Shown here piece by piece: positions 10,675-59,067 of a DNA stretch of 64,000 bases; within the stretch, counting starts at the first letter, position 1, and each line of letters starts with the position of its first letter. Source of the DNA: Sulfurimonas hydrogeniphila (GTDB lineage Bacteria > Campylobacterota > Campylobacteria > Campylobacterales > Sulfurimonadaceae); NCBI RefSeq assembly GCF_009068765.1, contig NZ_CP035534.1:1488001-1552000 (forward strand), written 5' to 3'. The translations under genes were made by a program, and so were the position numbers. The notes beneath the pieces are model-generated. The model saw only the letters and a program-made list of their open reading frames with translations. It made no database searches and was not told the origin of the DNA.

Positions 10675-12183
10675 TTATTGCAAGCTGTCATCGTTTCTGT
10701 CTTGTTTTAATTTTTTTTTCAAAATAATTTTGCCGTTTTCAACACCGGGTTGATTGTAGGCATCAATATACATCAGTTTTGCACACAGGGAAGTCAACAG
10801 TTCATATTCATACATCAAAGCGGCAATGGCACTTTCACAAACACCGTCTATTGTTATCACATCACACGGGATGTCTTTTTGGCTGTTTATTGATTCTATC
10901 GTTGCATCCGCCTGTTTGTTTATCAATTCGGAAAAAGGAATATTATTAAGATATCGTAACTCTTCAAGCCCTTCCAGTTTTACATCCGGAATTTTCAAAT
11001 CATTGTCAAAATTTTCCACCTTGATGACAGTTACCGTTTTATCTCGTCTGCCTTCGATGATAAGCTGTAAAAACGAGTGCTGATCAATCGGACCGATAAT
11101 ACCGATAGGTGTCAATCCCTGACGTGTATTGTTTATATCAATTTTACCAAGACTTTCTCCCCAAAGCTGAATATACCACTTGTTGAAACCTTCAAGGCGT
11201 GAGGAGTAGGAAAAGACTACATTTATGTTGTAATTGTATTTGTATTCGACTAAAAATCGGGCTTTTTTTAAAAGGCGTTGTTTAATATTTATGCCATTGT
11301 CAGCCGGCACTGAAGTACCGGTTCCGGAGATATTACCTGTGTCATCTTTGTGGAGAGGCACTGAAGTAGCGGTTCCGGAGATATTACCTGCGTTATCGTT
11401 GTGGAGGGGAACTGAAGTAGCAGTTCCGGAGATATTGCCTGTGTCATCGTTGTGGAGGGGAACTGAAGTAGCAGTTCCGGAGATATTGCCTGTGTCATCG
11501 TTGTGGAGAGGCACTGAAGTAGCGGTTGCAGAGGTACCCTGGAACCCGTACTTCAGTGCGGGCTGCTCTTTATGAGTCCCAAAAAACTCATCATGTACTT
11601 TTCTCGCACCGGACAACAATGCATCTATGTCTATACCCACTATCGCCAAAGGTAGTAAACCGACTGCACAAAACACAGAAAAGCGTCCTCCCACATTTTT
11701 CGGAATCTCAAAAATCTTCATGCTGTGTATACGGGCATAATCACTTAATTTGGAATCGTTCTCACTGACAATCACGCTGTTTTCTCTGTTACATGTAACC
11801 AAAGAGTTTATATACTTAAACAATGCAATTGTTTCCAAAGTTGTCCCGGATTTTGAAATCACTATAAAAAGCGTATCTTCCAAATCAATATTTTCAATCT
11901 TGGACTTTATATCAATAGGGTCTGTAGTTTCAAGAAAAAAAAGTTTTTTCCTTAAATCTTTTGAGTGTTTTAAAAATTTATAAACAGCATAGGTACCAAG
12001 GGTACTTCCGCCGATACCGATAACGGCTATATTAGTTTGTTTCACTGTTTTGGCATACTCTTTATAAACAGATGTATCTTGAAGCGGCAGTGTATAATAG
12101 CCGATAGAGTTCTTTTCTTTTACAATTTCAGCAAAAACATCTTCATCTGAGATAGTCGGATTGAAATTATGACTATAGTTCAT
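10675..12183 (-). CDS. pgi: Glucose-6-phosphate isomerase with in-frame repeat insertion
   Basis: Pgi interconverts glucose-6-P and fructose-6-P. Family motifs are present: GIGGSTLGTYAVYKF, FIVISKSGTTLET, and WYIQLWGESLGK with GIIGPIDQHSFLQL. The protein is about 500 aa, roughly 100 longer than the compact epsilon-type enzymes. The excess is one block at about residues 209-297, encoded by a palindromic repeat whose left arm has expanded into 51-bp tandem copies. They are read as 17-residue repeats (SGTATSVPLHNDDTGNI). The ATG at 12183 overlaps the galU stop as ATGA and is chosen over the TTG at 12189. Whether the enzyme is active with this insert is unknown. Confidence 0.92.
   Translation of the reverse strand: MNYSHNFNPTISDEDVFAEIVKEKNSIGYYTLPLQDTSVYKEYAKTVKQTNIAVIGIGGSTLGTYAVYKFLKHSKDLRKKLFFLETTDPIDIKSKIENIDLEDTLFIVISKSGTTLETIALFKYINSLVTCNRENSVIVSENDSKLSDYARIHSMKIFEIPKNVGGRFSVFCAVGLLPLAIVGIDIDALLSGARKVHDEFFGTHKEQPALKYGFQGTSATATSVPLHNDDTGNISGTATSVPLHNDDTGNISGTATSVPLHNDNAGNISGTATSVPLHKDDTGNISGTGTSVPADNGINIKQRLLKKARFLVEYKYNYNINVVFSYSSRLEGFNKWYIQLWGESLGKIDINNTRQGLTPIGIIGPIDQHSFLQLIIEGRRDKTVTVIKVENFDNDLKIPDVKLEGLEELRYLNNIPFSELINKQADATIESINSQKDIPCDVITIDGVCESAIAALMYEYELLTSLCAKLMYIDAYNQPGVENGKIILKKKLKQDRNDDSLQ
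11301..11563. repeat. REP insertion with 51-bp tandem expansion inside pgi
   Basis: The left arm (11301-11325, core GGCACTGAAGTACCGG then TTCC) and right arm (11541-11563, GGAA then CCCGTACTTCAGTGCGGG) match the intergenic REP family. Between them ACTGAAGTA recurs at 11309, 11360, 11411, 11462 and 11513. The period is exactly 51 bp: one arm plus spacer. All copies keep the pgi frame open. Confidence 0.93.
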
Positions 12184-13130
12184 GAACAACTCTTGTTGTA
12201 AAAATAATTTGTAGCTGCAACAAAACCGTCTACACTGCCACAGTCAAAGCGTTTTCCTTGAAATTTATAGGCAATTACTCTGCCTTGTTTCGCCTGTTGC
12301 AGCAGTGCATCGGTTATTTGAATTTCTCCGCCTTTACCCGGTTTTGTTTCACGCAAAATATCGAATATATCCGGAGTAAGGATGTACCTGCCTATAATGG
12401 CCAGATTGGACGGAGCGTCCTGCGGGGATGGTTTTTCTACCATATCTGTAATTTTAAAAGCGTTATCGCCCAGACTAAAGTCTGGGTTCCGTATCTCACC
12501 TTCAATATCCTTGTCGCCTAGACTAATGTCTGGATTCCTTGTCTCACCTGCATCTGATTCATCTTCCCGGAACCCGTACTTCAGTGCGGGCTGCTCTTCT
12601 ATTGCTACTACACCGTATTTGTTAGTATCATCATAAGGTACTTCTTCGACAGCAACGATAGAGCACTTGTATTTTTCGTAAAGTTTTACCATCTGTGCCA
12701 AAACACCCGCACTCTCATTATCACACAAATCATCTGCTAGTATGACGGCAAAAGGTTCTTTTCCGATAAGAGTTTCACCTGTCAGTATGGCATGTCCAAG
12801 CCCTTTCATCTCAACTTGTCGCGTATAGGAAAAGGTGCAGGTTGTTATTACTTTTCTTATCTCTTGCAAATAACTCTCTTTTGCAGTACCTTTAATCTGA
12901 TGCTCGAGTTCATAAGAAACATCAAAGTGATCTTCAATTGCACGTTTCCCACGCCCCGTAACGATTGCCATAGTAGTAAGCCCCGCTTCTATTGCTTCTT
13001 CCACCCCGTATTGAAGAAGCGGTTTCGTAAGGACGGGGAGCATCTCTTTTGGTATCGCTTTTGTAGCCGGCAAAAATCTTGTTCCGTAGCCTGCCGCCGG
13101 AAAAAGACATTTTCTGATTGTTGTTTGCAA
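12180..13130 (-). CDS. galU: UTP-glucose-1-phosphate uridylyltransferase with in-frame repeat insertion
   Basis: GalU makes UDP-glucose for surface glycans. The N-terminus (CLFPAAGYGTRFLPATKA) is the nucleotidyltransferase motif, and VEKPSPQDAPSNLAIIGRY and GEIQITDALL are GalU signatures. The 316-aa product is about 40 residues longer than usual. The extra block, about residues 180-221, comes from REP arms and contains two 16-residue repeats (RNPDISLGD / RNPDFSLGD) and EQPALKYGF, the same peptide as in Pgi. The start is a TTG with AAAGGA upstream. It overlaps pgi by 4 bp. Confidence 0.93.
   Translation of the reverse strand: MQTTIRKCLFPAAGYGTRFLPATKAIPKEMLPVLTKPLLQYGVEEAIEAGLTTMAIVTGRGKRAIEDHFDVSYELEHQIKGTAKESYLQEIRKVITTCTFSYTRQVEMKGLGHAILTGETLIGKEPFAVILADDLCDNESAGVLAQMVKLYEKYKCSIVAVEEVPYDDTNKYGVVAIEEQPALKYGFREDESDAGETRNPDISLGDKDIEGEIRNPDFSLGDNAFKITDMVEKPSPQDAPSNLAIIGRYILTPDIFDILRETKPGKGGEIQITDALLQQAKQGRVIAYKFQGKRFDCGSVDGFVAATNYFYNKSCS
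12468..12591. repeat. REP insertion with 48-bp duplication inside galU
   Basis: Two left arms at 12468-12490 (hairpin CCCAGACTAAAGTCTGGG) and 12516-12538 (a degenerate copy) are spaced exactly 48 bp apart. They are followed by a right arm at 12569-12591 (GGAA, CCCGTACTTCAGTGCGGG). The galU frame stays open throughout. Confidence 0.9.
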
Positions 13131-13191: not shown

Positions 13192-13347
13192 AGCCCGTAC
13201 TGAAGTACGGGTTCCGAAAAAGCTGCACATCTCCAGGAATCAGTACTTTAATGCCGACTGTTGTTGCTTACTGTCACTCTCAGCCCACCCTAAAGGATGG
13301 GTTCCTAAATACTGAATACTTCCCGGAATCGGTACTTTAGTGCCGAC
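13192..13347. repeat. Two tandem REP doublets between galU and pglB
   Basis: Unit one (13192-13258) and unit two (13282-13347) each have a left arm ending in TTCC, a spacer of about 20 nt, and a right arm of GGAATC-GGTACTTTA type ending GCCGAC. Unit two has the variant left hairpin CCCACCCTAAAGGATGGG. The linker GTCACTCTC between the units recurs at other loci. Together with flanking bases they fill the 230-bp gap; no gene is seen. Confidence 0.92.
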
Positions 13348-17550: not shown

Positions 17551-17684
17551 AGCGCACCATAAAGAGTGGGTTCCAAAAAACTGTACACATTCACAGAAAT
17601 CGGTACTTTCCTGGCATTCTCGCCCGCACTGAAGTACGGATTCCAAATGCAACAATTTCTCGGAATCGGTACTTCAGTGCCGAC
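17551..17684. repeat. REP doublets downstream of the WecA-like gene
   Basis: A worn unit (17551-17614) is followed by a good unit (17622-17684: GCCCGCACTGAAGTACGG ... GGAATC-GGTACTTCAGTGCC-GAC). The right arm enters the preceding gene on the minus strand and supplies its last codons and the TGA stop. Confidence 0.88.
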
Positions 17685-51710: not shown

Positions 51711-51820
51711 AGCCCGCACTGAAGTACGGGTTCCGAAAAAGCCGCTTAACTTAATGGCATTGCCTAAAGGATAGATTCCAAAAACTGCACATCTCTCGGA
51801 ATCGGTACTTCAGTGCCGAC
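51711..51820. repeat. REP composite with three arms
   Basis: The left arm AGCCCGCACTGAAGTACGGG-TTCC is followed by a spacer, a worn second left arm (GCCTAAAGGATAGATTCC) and a right arm ending GCCGAC at 51820. The first arm with its spacer is repeated in inverted orientation near 59.4 kb. Confidence 0.85.
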
Positions 51821-52774: not shown

Positions 52775-54184
52775 CATAAGTATCTACACAACTCAAAAAA
52801 GCAAAGAAAGCGGAATAGATATTGCATAAGATTTTAAAAAACAAGAGAGTTTATGCAATGGAAGAGCGTTTAAAAAAAAAGATATATGAGACTGGTAAAA
52901 AGTCATATGAATCATAAACAACACAGTACCAATGGATTAAACCTGCTACAAAAGACTGAAGGATTTTCACAAGCACAAAGTGCTTGGAGATTTTACAATA
53001 ATGAGCATGTAGATATAGAGTCACTCAATGAGCCAATGCTTACAAGAGGGATTAAAACTATTAATAAAAGCAGTGATGAATATATACTTGTAGCCCATGA
53101 CTGGTCACTCATAAATTATAAAAACCATACGGCAAAAACAGATTGTATACGAAAACGCAGAAGCAATGTAAATAATGCTTCATCAAGAGGATATGAGTTG
53201 CAAAGTTCCCTTGCAATTGAGAGCAGCAGCGGCAAACCAATCCTTCCCTTGGTACAGAACCTAAAGACACAAGATAAAGTGCTCTCAAGCTATAATCCTA
53301 CAATGAAGAGTCATCTTACCCATCTCGGTGAATTAACACAAAGAATAGCTTATATCAATCAATCCCTCAACATACAAAAGAAAATTGTACATGTAATTGA
53401 CAGAGAAGCAGACAGTGCGGGGTTTTTCAGAGGACTGCAAAAAGAGGATTTATATATAGTACGAGCATTAGACAATGTCAAAGTCAGGTATGAAGATGAA
53501 GATATTACCCAAAAAGAGTTGTCCAAAAAAATGGATAAAGGCAAATATGTAAAAACTATACAGTATCAAAATAAAAAAGTAAAAATTTATGTTAATACGG
53601 TAGATATACTTATAACAAGAGACAGCTATCAAAAGACAGATACGCCACAAGGTAAAACAATAAAACAAAAAGTAAAAGGCAAGCCAATAAAAAACAGATT
53701 TATAGTCCAAAGACTCATAGATGAGAAGAACAATACAGTTGCTACCTGGCTTCTGTTAAGCAATCTTCCAAAAGATGTTGATATAACAAGGATAGGATTG
53801 TGGTATTATTACAGATGGAATATAGAAACGTATTTTAAACTGTTAAAAAGCTCAGGGTTTAATTTGGAAAAATGGCAGCAAGAGAGTGCACAGGCTATAT
53901 TTAAACGCTTGTTTGTTGCCTCTTATGCCTGTTTGCTTGTATGGGAAATTGAACATACAAATAGTAAAAACATGCTGGCAATTAGAAAGTTTTTAGTTCG
54001 ATTAAGCGGGAGATTGGTAGCAAGAAAGAAGATATCTACCTCTCCGGCTCTGTTAGCAGGTTTATGGAACTTCTTCTCTGCTATGGATATGCTTGAACTT
54101 TATGATATTGAAGAACTCCATAGCATTAAAAAAGAACTCAATGACTTTATGCAGATGGAGTTTTAAGTTGTGTAGATACTTATG
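52775..54184 (+). mobile_element. IS4-family insertion sequence (IS50/ISPepr1-like)
   Basis: The element is 1410 bp with perfect 19-bp terminal inverted repeats (CATAAGTATCTACACAACT and its complement) and an 8-bp target duplication, ACTGAAGT. It carries one transposase gene. It interrupts a REP hairpin exactly inside the stem, so it arrived after the REP. Confidence 0.95.
52858..54166 (+). CDS. IS4-family DDE transposase (frameshift near start)
   Basis: DDE residues are visible (numbering from the ATG at 52886): D72 in VAHDWSLINY, D172 in VIDREADSAGF, and E314 in YYYRWNIETYFKLLKSSG, the Y-(2)-R-(3)-E-(6)-K signature. The long frame starts at 52886, but the N-terminal MEERLKK begins at 52858 in another frame. 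A one-base change in the A9 run (52872-52880) would join them as RLKKRYMRLVK, as in related transposases. It is either inactive, made by slippage, or a sequence error. Confidence 0.88.
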
Positions 54185-55314: not shown

Positions 55315-55446
55315 GCCCACTCCAAGAATGGCTCCGGAATCGGTACTTCAGTGCCGACTGTTACTACTTTTTTGTCACTCCCGCCCACCCTAAAGGATGG
55401 GTTCCGAAAAATAATGACTCCTCGGAATCGGTACTTCAGTGCCGAC
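55315..55446. repeat. Two REP doublets between lsrK and mqnE
   Basis: In unit one (55315-55358) the worn left arm directly touches the right arm, with no spacer. In unit two (55383-55446) the hairpin is CCCACCCTAAAGGATGGG, with an 18-nt spacer and a right arm. The linker TTTTTTGTCACTCCC lies between them. They fill the gap to lsrK. Confidence 0.9.
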
Positions 55447-55455
55447 TTTACTTCT

Positions 55456-57018
55456 TTAAAGTCCGGGGGCTTTCCACATTGAAGTCGTGATATTATCATC
55501 AACTAGCTTTAATTGCACTTCATACGCTTTTTGCCATCTTTCTTTTAACTTTGCATAAACTTCTTTATTCTTCTCGTTGGGCATATATTTTTTATCCCAG
55601 ACCACCAACTCTTTTGCCGCTTCTGCTAAACTTTTATAAACACCGACACCTACACCTGCTGCCATTGCCGCACCAAGTGCGGTTGCCTCGGTCACTTTTG
55701 GAATCTTCACCACACAGCCCGTTACATCCGCTAGAATCTGTGCCCACAGTTTTCCTTTGCTTGCCCCGCCTGCAAAGACAATCTCTTTTATTTTTATACC
55801 GCTGAATACCTCTATATTTTGCAAATTAATGCTTGAAACAATGGCAGCATTTTCCTCCAAACTCCGAAACATTGAGATATGATTATATTTCTCGGCATCA
55901 AGTCCGAGATTTAAAAAACTCGGCGCGGCATGGTACCACTTGCCGTATTTCATCACATCTGAAAATATCGGTAAAATATCATAAGAACCTGCGGGAATTT
56001 TCTGTGCTTTTTCTTCTAAAACTTCATAAACATCTTTACCACACAGACTTGCCTCTTCTTTTTCCGTCTGACAAAAAGCGTCGCGAAACCAGCGCATAAC
56101 AAGCCCAGAAAAAAATGTTATGCCCTCCGCCTGAGAAAGCCCTTCTATAACATGCGGATTGACGCGTATACTCATATCTTTTGGTGGTTTGACACTGCTT
56201 GGAATATTGACCACCTGTTGCCAAAAACTTCCACCCAAAATTGCCACATCACCCTCTTTGACAACCCCGAGTCCGGCAGAACCAAGTTGCACATCTCCTC
56301 CGCCCATCACAACTTTCGTCAAGGGGCTCAATCCTGTTTCATCTGCAACTTTTTCACTTACATTGCCAAGAATCGTTCCCGTTTCCAGCACAGGAGGAAA
56401 TATCTCCTCTTTTATACCGACTTTTTGTGCCATCTCTTTTTCCCAGCTGCGCGAAGCAAGAGAAAAAATTCCTGTAGTGCCGCCGTTACTTGGGTCAACG
56501 GCTATTACTCCGCTCAAACGTGCCAAAATCCAATCACCTATCATAGAAATATTTGCCACTTTTTCATAGATTTTTGGTCTCTTGTTTTTAAGCCACAGCA
56601 AACGGGGCAAAGCGCCAAGAGCAAAGGTCTGTCCGCTTTTTTGGTAAAACTCTTCTTCGATTTCAGGAAATTTTTCTTTTAAATATTTTACTTCTTTTGA
56701 AGCACGGGCATCAACATTAGCAACGCCCCAGAGTTCCTTGCCGTTCTTGTCATACAGGACAATTCCCTCACGCATACTTGTAGCACTGAGTGCCAAAATA
56801 TCTGCAGGATTAATCTTTGATTTTGCAATAACATTTTTGATACAGTTACATGTAAGCAGCCAGTTCTTTTCAAAATCAAAAGCCATGGAGTTTGCTACAC
56901 CCTCTTCTTCTAAATGTGTCCATTCTTTTTGCTCTGCGGCAATTTGCTTCCCCTGCGTATCAAAAAGTACAGCACGAATACTTCCTGTACCTGCATCTAT
57001 TGCTAAAAGATATGCCAT
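55456..57018 (-). CDS. lsrK: Autoinducer-2 kinase (FGGY family)
   Basis: The 520-aa product resembles enterobacterial LsrK along its whole length: LLAIDAGTGSIRAVLFDTQG (N-terminal phosphate site), SMREGIVLY, VDPSNGGTTG, GGGDVQLG, ALEENAAIVS, FAGGASKGKLW, and even the end TTSMWKAPGL. LsrK phosphorylates AI-2 (DPD) in the cytoplasm. The ATG at 57018 has AAAAGGA upstream. No LsrACDB transporter or LsrR is in the window, but an LsrG-like gene and an aldolase lie upstream on the same strand. Confidence 0.92.
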   Translation of the reverse strand: MAYLLAIDAGTGSIRAVLFDTQGKQIAAEQKEWTHLEEEGVANSMAFDFEKNWLLTCNCIKNVIAKSKINPADILALSATSMREGIVLYDKNGKELWGVANVDARASKEVKYLKEKFPEIEEEFYQKSGQTFALGALPRLLWLKNKRPKIYEKVANISMIGDWILARLSGVIAVDPSNGGTTGIFSLASRSWEKEMAQKVGIKEEIFPPVLETGTILGNVSEKVADETGLSPLTKVVMGGGDVQLGSAGLGVVKEGDVAILGGSFWQQVVNIPSSVKPPKDMSIRVNPHVIEGLSQAEGITFFSGLVMRWFRDAFCQTEKEEASLCGKDVYEVLEEKAQKIPAGSYDILPIFSDVMKYGKWYHAAPSFLNLGLDAEKYNHISMFRSLEENAAIVSSINLQNIEVFSGIKIKEIVFAGGASKGKLWAQILADVTGCVVKIPKVTEATALGAAMAAGVGVGVYKSLAEAAKELVVWDKKYMPNEKNKEVYAKLKERWQKAYEVQLKLVDDNITTSMWKAPGL

Positions 57019-57052
57019 ATTTTTCCTTTTCATTAACTTTCCTACCACGCTT

Positions 57053-57203
57053 GCCCGCACTGAAGTACGGGTTCCAAAATGCAGTGACTCCTCGGAATCG
57101 GTACTTCAGTGCCGACTCTTTGAACTTTTTTGCCGCTCCCACCCACCCTAAAGGATAGGTTCCAGAATGCAGTGACTCCCGGAATCGGTACTTCAGTGCC
57201 GAC
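57053..57203. repeat. Two REP doublets at the 3' side of the RAYT gene
   Basis: Unit one (57053-57116) and unit two (57141-57203) have near-identical spacers containing AATGCAGTGACTCC and share the linker TTTTTTGCCGCTCCC. Unit two ends 5 bp from the RAYT stop codon. Confidence 0.92.
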
Positions 57204-57208
57204 TTTTG

Positions 57209-57718
57209 TTACTCATATTTACTAAAAACCCGCTCATCTGTGAGTCCGGCTTTGAGAGGGTTATTTTTTATGTAATTATAAACTTTTACATAATGTTCTT
57301 CATCTCTTATAAGTTTGTCATAATACCCGTCTGCCCAAAATTTTCCTGATTTTTGCAAAAGTCTATTGAGTTCAACCGCACTTTTACCTTTGATATATTG
57401 CATAATTTTACCTAAATCCTCATTTTGCTTGAATAACAAATGAATATGATTTGGCATAACTGCCATCATTTCCACATCATAAAGTTTTTCGTCTTCTTCT
57501 AAAATAACATCTACAAAGACATCAATAGCTTCATCAAACAGATAGGCACCATTTTTTGACATGTCCAAATAACTGTCTATTTGAAACTGTTTTATATGTT
57601 CTTTTTCATCATTTGCCAGAATTTTTTGTACATAAGCATCTACGCTGTCTTGTGTACGAAATGTTATAAATTGGTAATGTTCTTTCAGACTGATATGATG
57701 CAGTTTTGTGTGGTTCAT
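57209..57718 (-). CDS. REP-associated tyrosine transposase (RAYT, TnpA-REP)
   Basis: This 169-aa Y1-type HUH enzyme has the metal-binding H91-I-H93 in AVMPNHIHLLF and the probable nucleophile Y149 in VYNYIKNNPLKAGL; KFWADGYYDKLIRDE precedes it. RAYTs cut and join single-stranded REP hairpins in known systems. Here REP doublets flank the gene on both sides within 5-80 bp, and the same arms are spread over the window. It interrupts the lsr-like gene set. The frame is intact, so the system may be active. Confidence 0.93.
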   Translation of the reverse strand: MNHTKLHHISLKEHYQFITFRTQDSVDAYVQKILANDEKEHIKQFQIDSYLDMSKNGAYLFDEAIDVFVDVILEEDEKLYDVEMMAVMPNHIHLLFKQNEDLGKIMQYIKGKSAVELNRLLQKSGKFWADGYYDKLIRDEEHYVKVYNYIKNNPLKAGLTDERVFSKYE

Positions 57719-57758
57719 TTTTTATTGTAAAGCCCTCTTTAAATTTTTACTCAGTTTA

Positions 57759-57887
57759 GCCCGCACTGAAGTACGGGTTCCGAAATTTCCCGGAATCGGT
57801 ACTTTAGTGCCGACTGCTGTTACTTTCTTGCCACTCTCGCCCGCACTGAAGTACGGGTTCCGGGATAAATTACACTTTCGTGCCGCC
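57759..57887. repeat. Two REP doublets at the 5' side of the RAYT gene
   Basis: Unit one (57759-57814) is complete with a 10-nt spacer. Unit two (57839-57887) has an intact left arm but a worn right arm (ACTTTCGTGCCGCC). The linker TTACTTTCTTGCCACTCTC joins them. The unit ends just before the aldolase stop. Confidence 0.9.
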
Positions 57888-57891
57888 TTTG

Positions 57892-59067
57892 TTACTTTTT
57901 CAGTTTCGCCTGTTCCAGTTCCCAGTACTCCATCGCAAAGCTCTCTTTTTCACTGATGCTTTGGTAGCCGCCTAATTTGTCTGAGCGCAATACTGCCAAC
58001 ATGGTATGGTTTACTATATCATTGATAATTGCCGCTTCTTTTCTGTTTTTTCCAAAAGAGATGACTGCGAGATTTTTTATAATCATATAATTGGGGGCAG
58101 GATTCAGCATCACCTCATCAGTGGCATATTTTTCAAAATAGGTTTTATACTCTTGCATATATTTTTCTACTGCTGCTTCCAAATTTGTATCTTCCATCAC
58201 AAGCGGTACTCTTTTTGTGCGTATGATATGCTCAGGAGTCAAGACACCGCGTGATGCAAACTCTTTTAAATTCGGCTGTGACGCATAATATGCTGCCAAA
58301 GGCGACTGATTGATATTGATAGAGACTTCATAGCCTTTCGCGGCAGAAAGTACCTTTGTTATTTTTCCGATATCACAGTCACTGTGGACATAATTATGTT
58401 CAATATGCACAACAGCCTGTTCGTCCAAAAAATTTTCTGCTTTTGTGACGGCTTCTATCATTTTGTCATAAGATTTTTTGGCATCATTGTCGAAAGTAAA
58501 AATCCCGTGATGATGCAAAATGATGCCGTCTATACTCTCCCAGTCCAAATCTTTTGTCATTTTATAAATTGTATGTGCCAGTTCAAAGCCCGGCATAATA
58601 TAATCAACAATTAAAAAATTTGGAAAAAGCTTGACAATATGCTCATCCCCGTTCACTGAATTTGAAATCGTTACAATAGCATCCGCATGGGTATGGTCCA
58701 CAAATTTGTAGGGAATCAGCGCATGCAGTATCGCTTCCACCGAAGGATTCGGCGCAGATTTATCCGTCATCGCCTCTCGTTGCAGGTGTACCATTTCACT
58801 GTCACTCAAATGCTCACGTTTTGCCATTTCTAAAAGTACATCCAGTTTCACAGGTGCAAAACCTTCTGCTTCTATGCTTGCCAAGTCCCAGCCACTTCCC
58901 TTTACATGTAAGACATCTTCGCCGTTTATTTTGCTTTTGAGTGAGGTATTGCCGCCTCCGTGCAGTACCAGTTCATCATTTTGTCCCAACAGGTTTGAGC
59001 TGTATACCCTCAAATCCAAATCACTTTTACATGCAGCCGCTTTTTTTTCATTCCATAAATTGTCCAT
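57892..59067 (-). CDS. Class II aldolase/adducin family protein (RhaD N-terminal-like)
   Basis: This 391-aa protein has LVLHGGGNTSLKSKING (substrate-phosphate loop), VDHTHADAIVTISNSV (two zinc histidines), and ILHHHGIFTFDNDA (third and fourth). It matches the aldolase domain of long rhamnulose-phosphate aldolase/dehydrogenase proteins but lacks the dehydrogenase half. It starts 3 bp after the LsrG-like gene. Between lsrG-like and lsrK it may cleave a phosphorylated DPD or 5-deoxy-pentose product. This is inferred. Confidence 0.87.
   Translation of the reverse strand: MDNLWNEKKAAACKSDLDLRVYSSNLLGQNDELVLHGGGNTSLKSKINGEDVLHVKGSGWDLASIEAEGFAPVKLDVLLEMAKREHLSDSEMVHLQREAMTDKSAPNPSVEAILHALIPYKFVDHTHADAIVTISNSVNGDEHIVKLFPNFLIVDYIMPGFELAHTIYKMTKDLDWESIDGIILHHHGIFTFDNDAKKSYDKMIEAVTKAENFLDEQAVVHIEHNYVHSDCDIGKITKVLSAAKGYEVSININQSPLAAYYASQPNLKEFASRGVLTPEHIIRTKRVPLVMEDTNLEAAVEKYMQEYKTYFEKYATDEVMLNPAPNYMIIKNLAVISFGKNRKEAAIINDIVNHTMLAVLRSDKLGGYQSISEKESFAMEYWELEQAKLKK

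Follow-up and report, generated by a model that had tools for sequence, protein, structure and literature searches.

The genome of Sulfurimonas hydrogeniphila very probably carries a REPIN-RAYT (REPtron) system, made up of a RAYT gene and a family of short hairpin repeats that brackets the gene and recurs throughout the genome; we infer that the encoded protein binds, cleaves, and mobilizes the repeat arms. The system resembles a REPtron in how it works and contains the defining components of one, and it departs from the formal description in its tag, which is not GT[AG]G, and in an NCBIfam score below the family cut-off. The gene lies in a window of 64,000 nucleotides, the whole stretch of DNA analyzed (contig NZ_CP035534.1, positions 1,488,001 to 1,552,000), whose features are collected in Table 1.

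Table 1. Features of the RAYT region and other repeat-bearing sites. Coordinates are positions in the window.
Feature	Position	Strand	Remarks
REP-derived 51-bp tandem array	11308..11558		REP-like units, degenerate cores; fewer units in G116
Single REP	12569..12586	-	conserved in G116
REP cluster	13198..13342		common to G116
REP pair	17627..17679		orthologous G116 site is a decayed remnant only
REP pair, RAYT-flanking family	51717..51815
1410-bp DDE IS	52775..54184	+	in REP hairpin apex; 8-bp duplication ACTGAAGT
REP cluster	55336..55441		between kinase and mqnE-like gene; common to G116
FGGY carbohydrate kinase gene	55456..57060	-	downstream of insertion
REP arm, GGAACCCGTACTTCAGTGCGGGC	57053..57075	-	3' side of RAYT
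Complete REPIN	57094..57163	+	3' side of RAYT; GGAA-hairpin 57094-57116(+), linker, hairpin-TTCC 57141-57163(-)
REP arm, GGAATCGGTACTTCAGTGCCGAC	57181..57203	+	3' side of RAYT
RAYT (TnpAREP-like Y1 HUH endonuclease, 169 aa)	57209..57718	-	HUH H91-I92-H93, Y149, conserved W128
REP arm, GGAACCCGTACTTCAGTGCGGGC	57759..57781	-	5' side of RAYT
Complete REPIN	57792..57861	+	5' side of RAYT; arms 57792-57814(+), 57839-57861(-)
Decayed REP arm, eighth of block	about 57862..57887	+	5' side of RAYT
Class II aldolase gene	57892..59067	-	upstream of insertion

The initial annotation had recognized an intact Y1 HUH transposase with HIH at residues 91 to 93 and a tyrosine at 149. Our analysis agrees: the ORF is intact and encodes 169 residues, the protein matches Pfam Y1_Tnp (6.4e-11), and an alignment with 26 relatives from several phyla shows no variation at residues H91, H93, W128, and Y149. 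The protein thus has the HUH motif and single catalytic tyrosine of the Y1 HUH fold. The top PDB match of its AlphaFold (AF2) model (pLDDT 93.6) was Escherichia coli TnpAREP with a REP hairpin (4ER8; E = 1.7e-7), which ranked above the IS200/IS605 transposases. Against the NCBIfam model REP_Tyr_transpos (NF047646), the protein scored 74.8 bits, below the cut-off of 80, and against the IS200 model it scored 34.4 bits (cut-off, 55). All 26 aligned relatives matched NF047646 at E ≤ 1e-3, a statement about this threshold and not about their individual scores relative to the cut-off. The genome holds one copy of RAYT, and the dN/dS of 0.10 between this copy and that of the nearest relative (G116) indicates purifying selection. 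A single copy kept by selection fits domestication, and the gene does not behave like an IS.

The REP family amplified in the genome also flanks RAYT, with one complete REPIN on each side in addition to single arms. Two REP doublets per side had been proposed initially; the four arms on the 3' side stood, and the 5' side has three arms and one decayed copy. The arms at 57141-57163 and 57862-57887 are divergent. The doublet itself had to be redefined, in that the conserved unit is a tail-to-tail pair with outer tags (70 to 71 nt), not a head-to-head pair. Specifically, we found 23 tail-to-tail arm pairs, 20 of which span 70 to 71 nt, and identity across the oriented linker was 71%, compared with 50% for head-to-head spacers. 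Each unit consists of two 18-nt hairpins flanking a conserved linker close to CTGTTGCAATAGTCTTGCCACTCTCAG, with GGAA outside each hairpin, which is the inverted doublet with a conserved spacer that characterizes a REPIN.

To quantify the family, we searched the 2.34-Mb genome with two patterns. The core CACTGAAGTACNGNNTCC occurred 74 times exactly and 131 times at ≤1 mismatch (reversed control, 0), and the tag-including pattern GGAANCNGTACTTCAGTG occurred 154 times at two mismatches (reversed control, 1), so that the genome-wide count of arms suggested by the initial annotation came out clearly above background. In stretches around the sites found by the one- and two-mismatch searches, 192 arms were collected at ≤3 mismatches, a number that applies to these stretches rather than to the genome as a whole. 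We put the repeat at about 150 to 190 copies, part of which reflects local tandem duplication. By crude ORF calls in sampled DNA, 155 of the 192 arms lie outside called ORFs; 19% are inside, compared with 85% coding sequence in the sampled DNA, and the family is thus largely intergenic.

In its functional orientation, a typical arm reads TTTTTC-GGAA-[18-nt hairpin]-CT, and the GGAA tag is exact in 174 of the 192 arms. A short hairpin directly after a 5' tetranucleotide is what defines a REP. However, the canonical tetranucleotide is GTAG or GTGG, and because GGAA takes its place here, we filed the system as a variant. The hairpin has a 7-bp stem, a conserved T.G pair, and a TTCA or TTTA loop. 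Covariation at stem pairs 5-22 and 7-20 exceeded that in all 500 shuffles, and the T.G pair is mostly retained at stem positions 9-18. Of the two strands, the one carrying GGAA has the better fold.

Among the congeners compared, the repeats are abundant only in genomes of one RAYT lineage. Across 18 compared genomes, we counted 146 REPs in S. hydrogeniphila, 143 in G116, 23 in G033, and zero or one in each of the other 15, which are close congeners without a RAYT of this lineage; an initial scan across 60 relatives had shown a similar pattern. G116 has a RAYT at the same site that is 88% identical. In G033 (73% complete), RAYT is truncated after about residue 79, and 23 REPs are still present. 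Repeats equally common in relatives without the RAYT had been named at the outset as the observation that would count against the system, and the congeners did not provide it. The co-occurrence concerns a single lineage, and common descent rather than function could be a partial explanation. In other relatives with a RAYT, the gene is surrounded by cognate hairpins of a different kind. In a pattern search for one arm type per genome, G009 had 4 hairpin copies and G007 had 8, nearly all adjoining RAYT, both counts being lower bounds. Together with the single copy and the low dN/dS, the lineage-limited repeats and the distinct hairpins of other RAYTs support the domesticated REP/RAYT system that had been proposed.

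A full-length RAYT of this type was present in about 11 of 298 sampled Campylobacterota genomes. Related RAYTs with hairpins of their own, mostly tagged with GGAA or GGAG, occur in Campylobacterota and some Proteobacteria. The tags before hairpins of similar size at related RAYTs are mostly GGAA, and also GGAG, GGAT, and GTAA, as read by eye from the RAYT flanks, the automatic finder being noisy. A candidate link between the tag and the residue after the conserved tryptophan was dropped; no clear relation emerged, and beyond the close clade the automatic detection of tags gave noisy results.

The genomic position of the block indicates that it has moved. In S. hydrogeniphila and G116, the REP-RAYT block splits an aldolase-kinase gene pair. 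In eight relatives (G118, G007, G082, G027, G018, G076, G070, and G015), the aldolase stop codon lies directly beside the kinase start or within a few tens of bases of it, the spacer in G032 contains one hairpin, and further relatives have longer, unrelated spacers. In G033 and G236, RAYT instead comes after the mqnE-like gene in that gene cluster, a different position from which we conclude that the block changed place.

Within the window, the family had been noted at over a dozen loci; we counted 25 arms (≤2 mismatches) at 12 sites. Most aligned orthologous intergenic sites have REPs in both S. hydrogeniphila and G116, with changed copy number. That these sites are mostly shared suggests slow turnover and no recent burst. 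Separately, about 29 kb of the window (about 20243-49609) had no syntenic match in 100 kb of G116 and is possibly an island.

The repeats are also the target of an insertion sequence. The 1410-bp DDE IS has 12 intact full-length copies as well as broken ones in the genome (loci L279-L299), and every resolved end adjoins REP-apex sequence (ACTGAAGT, ACTTCAGT, ACTTTAGT, or a close variant), usually with the apex bases as an 8-bp duplication. Because the IS ends are unlike the REP and the duplicated bases belong to the REP core, we regard the REP as the target of the IS. REP-specific ISs are a known kind (Tobes and Pareja 2006, PMC1525189). As with ISPsy8, ISRm22, and ISPpu9, all copies sit at one point of the REP, and ISRm22 and ISPsy8 likewise insert at the palindrome axis; the present element differs from the three in its 8-bp duplication and its new REP host. 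We also considered the ISs of G116 as REP targeting and rejected them, since they are not in REPs. The two flanks of one copy in S. hydrogeniphila (L290) do not resemble each other, as if copies had recombined with one another. In four others (L292-L299; near 0.24, 1.83, and 1.90 Mb), some 1.2 kb of intervening DNA separates a part encoding residues 1-298 from one encoding residues of about 279-426, a structure that would fit insertion of a second element followed by spread of the composite.

Since all resolved IS ends lie within REPs, the repeats might have been spread by this IS rather than by RAYT. We consider this extremely improbable: G033 lacks the IS and yet has REPs, G116 has REPs and only weak matches to the IS, from other elements outside REPs, and the IS ends are unrelated to the REP sequence that the IS duplicates. 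It is also very unlikely that RAYT is an ordinary self-mobile IS200-type IS, with the repeats as its ends and solo remnants. Such an element would have the same HUH fold and hairpins bracketing its gene, and the different location of the gene in G033 and G236 would be expected of it. However, a single gene copy stands against some 150 to 190 hairpins, which pair in 70- to 71-nt units of their own, and the gene is under purifying selection. Furthermore, the protein scores far lower against the IS200 model than against the REP transposase model, and its closest fold is TnpAREP.

Despite their association with RAYT, the repeats could be host elements, such as terminators, mRNA stabilizers, or nucleoid binding sites, with RAYT adjacent by chance or as a rider. 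Roles of this kind are reported for other REPs in the introduction of PMC12306157, and the mostly intergenic location and the many sites orthologous with G116 would suit them. On the other hand, congeners without RAYT also lack the repeats, other RAYTs have distinct hairpins of their own, and at least six arms fall within 1.3 kb around RAYT (Poisson P of about 2e-9 with 192 arms taken genome-wide). We therefore judge it most improbable that host function accounts for the repeats in place of RAYT. The two readings are not exclusive, as mobilized elements can acquire host roles.

Under the REPIN-RAYT reading, the biochemistry of TnpAREP (PMC8266576) suggests how the system may operate. By this precedent, RAYT most likely binds single-stranded REP DNA, recognizing the GGAA tag and then the 18-nt hairpin, and would use Y149 to nick the DNA next to the hairpin. 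As the probable mobilizer of the REPINs, it would then move or copy the 70- to 71-nt unit (GGAA-hairpin-linker-hairpin-TTCC) to other intergenic sites. With GGAA as the guide, the rule from the same study would place the cleavage site at TT or TC; the TTTTTC that usually precedes the tag provides both dinucleotides. A wider proposal, which we hold with slightly more doubt than confidence, is that a GGAA-type guide, not GTAG, is used across a broad RAYT clade of Campylobacterota and some Proteobacteria, with cleavage shifted to TT/TC, and that the REPIN was amplified about 150-fold in one Sulfurimonas lineage, the hairpins remaining at 4 to 8 copies, nearly all around RAYT, in two tested sister genomes.

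The maintenance of RAYTs and the spread of REPINs remain questions for the field, and RAYT biochemistry has so far addressed GTAG-type systems of gammaproteobacteria. With a GGAA-type set, the guide rule can be tested on a prediction made beforehand (cleavage at TT/TC). Sister genomes offer a natural comparison, since the repeats around their homologous RAYTs are amplified in some and unamplified in others. In addition, the use of the REP apex as an IS landing site ties REP abundance to IS load.

The system resembles the REPIN-RAYT systems known from Pseudomonas fluorescens SBW25 (Bertels and Rainey 2011, PMC3116915) in its inverted REP doublet, which forms a long hairpin with about 71 nt between ends, in its intergenic location and clustering beside RAYT, and in having several REP subtypes. 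It differs in its GGAA tag, phylum, and RAYT motif group, and in the DDE IS that uses the REP apex. With E. coli TnpAREP/REP (4ER8; PMC8266576) it shares the HUH-Y1 fold, a single gene copy, a tag directly 5' of the hairpin, and a conserved stem mispair. In contrast, the E. coli REP has a GTAG guide, a longer stem, and an AA-GC bulge where ours has GGAA, an 18-nt hairpin, and a T.G wobble, and the two proteins are 16% identical in structural alignment. TnpAREP subclass 2.4 (Bertels group 4; Quentin et al. 2018, PMC6006769) is scattered over many phyla, with canonical GT[AG]G REPs and the motifs NH[IFV]H, WQ, and YIxNNP. RAYT agrees in NHIH and YIKNNP, but its tryptophan is followed by A, not Q, and its HUH-to-Y distance is about 56 residues versus a median of 88. 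TIRYT/TIRtron genes (PMC3733652) are similarly RAYT-like and flanked by non-GTAG repeats that are sometimes amplified as dimers; the paper describes those repeats as long inverted repeats at the termini, GGGGWSAS being present in some. It also reports GTAG repeats in epsilonproteobacteria, including Sulfurovum NBC37-1, so that the initial remark that such systems are little described in Campylobacterota is only roughly right. A 2025 survey (PMC12306157) counted REP candidates in Sulfurimonas gotlandica without mentioning transposases. Our literature search, which was incomplete in coverage and is weak evidence, found no paper on a Sulfurimonas RAYT system.

Several observations concern how the repeats are arranged on the chromosome. 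A relation between REPIN orientation and the replication fork was dropped as a candidate: 20 of 23 strict REPINs in S. hydrogeniphila have the same polarity (5/5 on one replichore and 15/18 on the other), with gene direction uncontrolled. A looser scan was rich in false matches, and, judged by eye, the polarity excess was absent in G116. The GC skew of the sampled S. hydrogeniphila DNA changes sign near 1.2 to 1.3 Mb, and 39 REPs lie before 1.25 Mb and 153 after it. Counted as sites, 23 of 81 lie before this point and 58 after (P of about 5e-6). The REPs of G116 seem unevenly distributed too, among the matches listed. Finally, an AT-rich insert of ~44 bp (..CTTAGAAAAAAACTAAATTTTTTTCTG..) interrupts the loop of several REPs at one and the same point, with five cases in the sampled S. 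hydrogeniphila DNA (L007, L247, L204, L213, and L216) and five in 100 kb of G116 (L187-L191).
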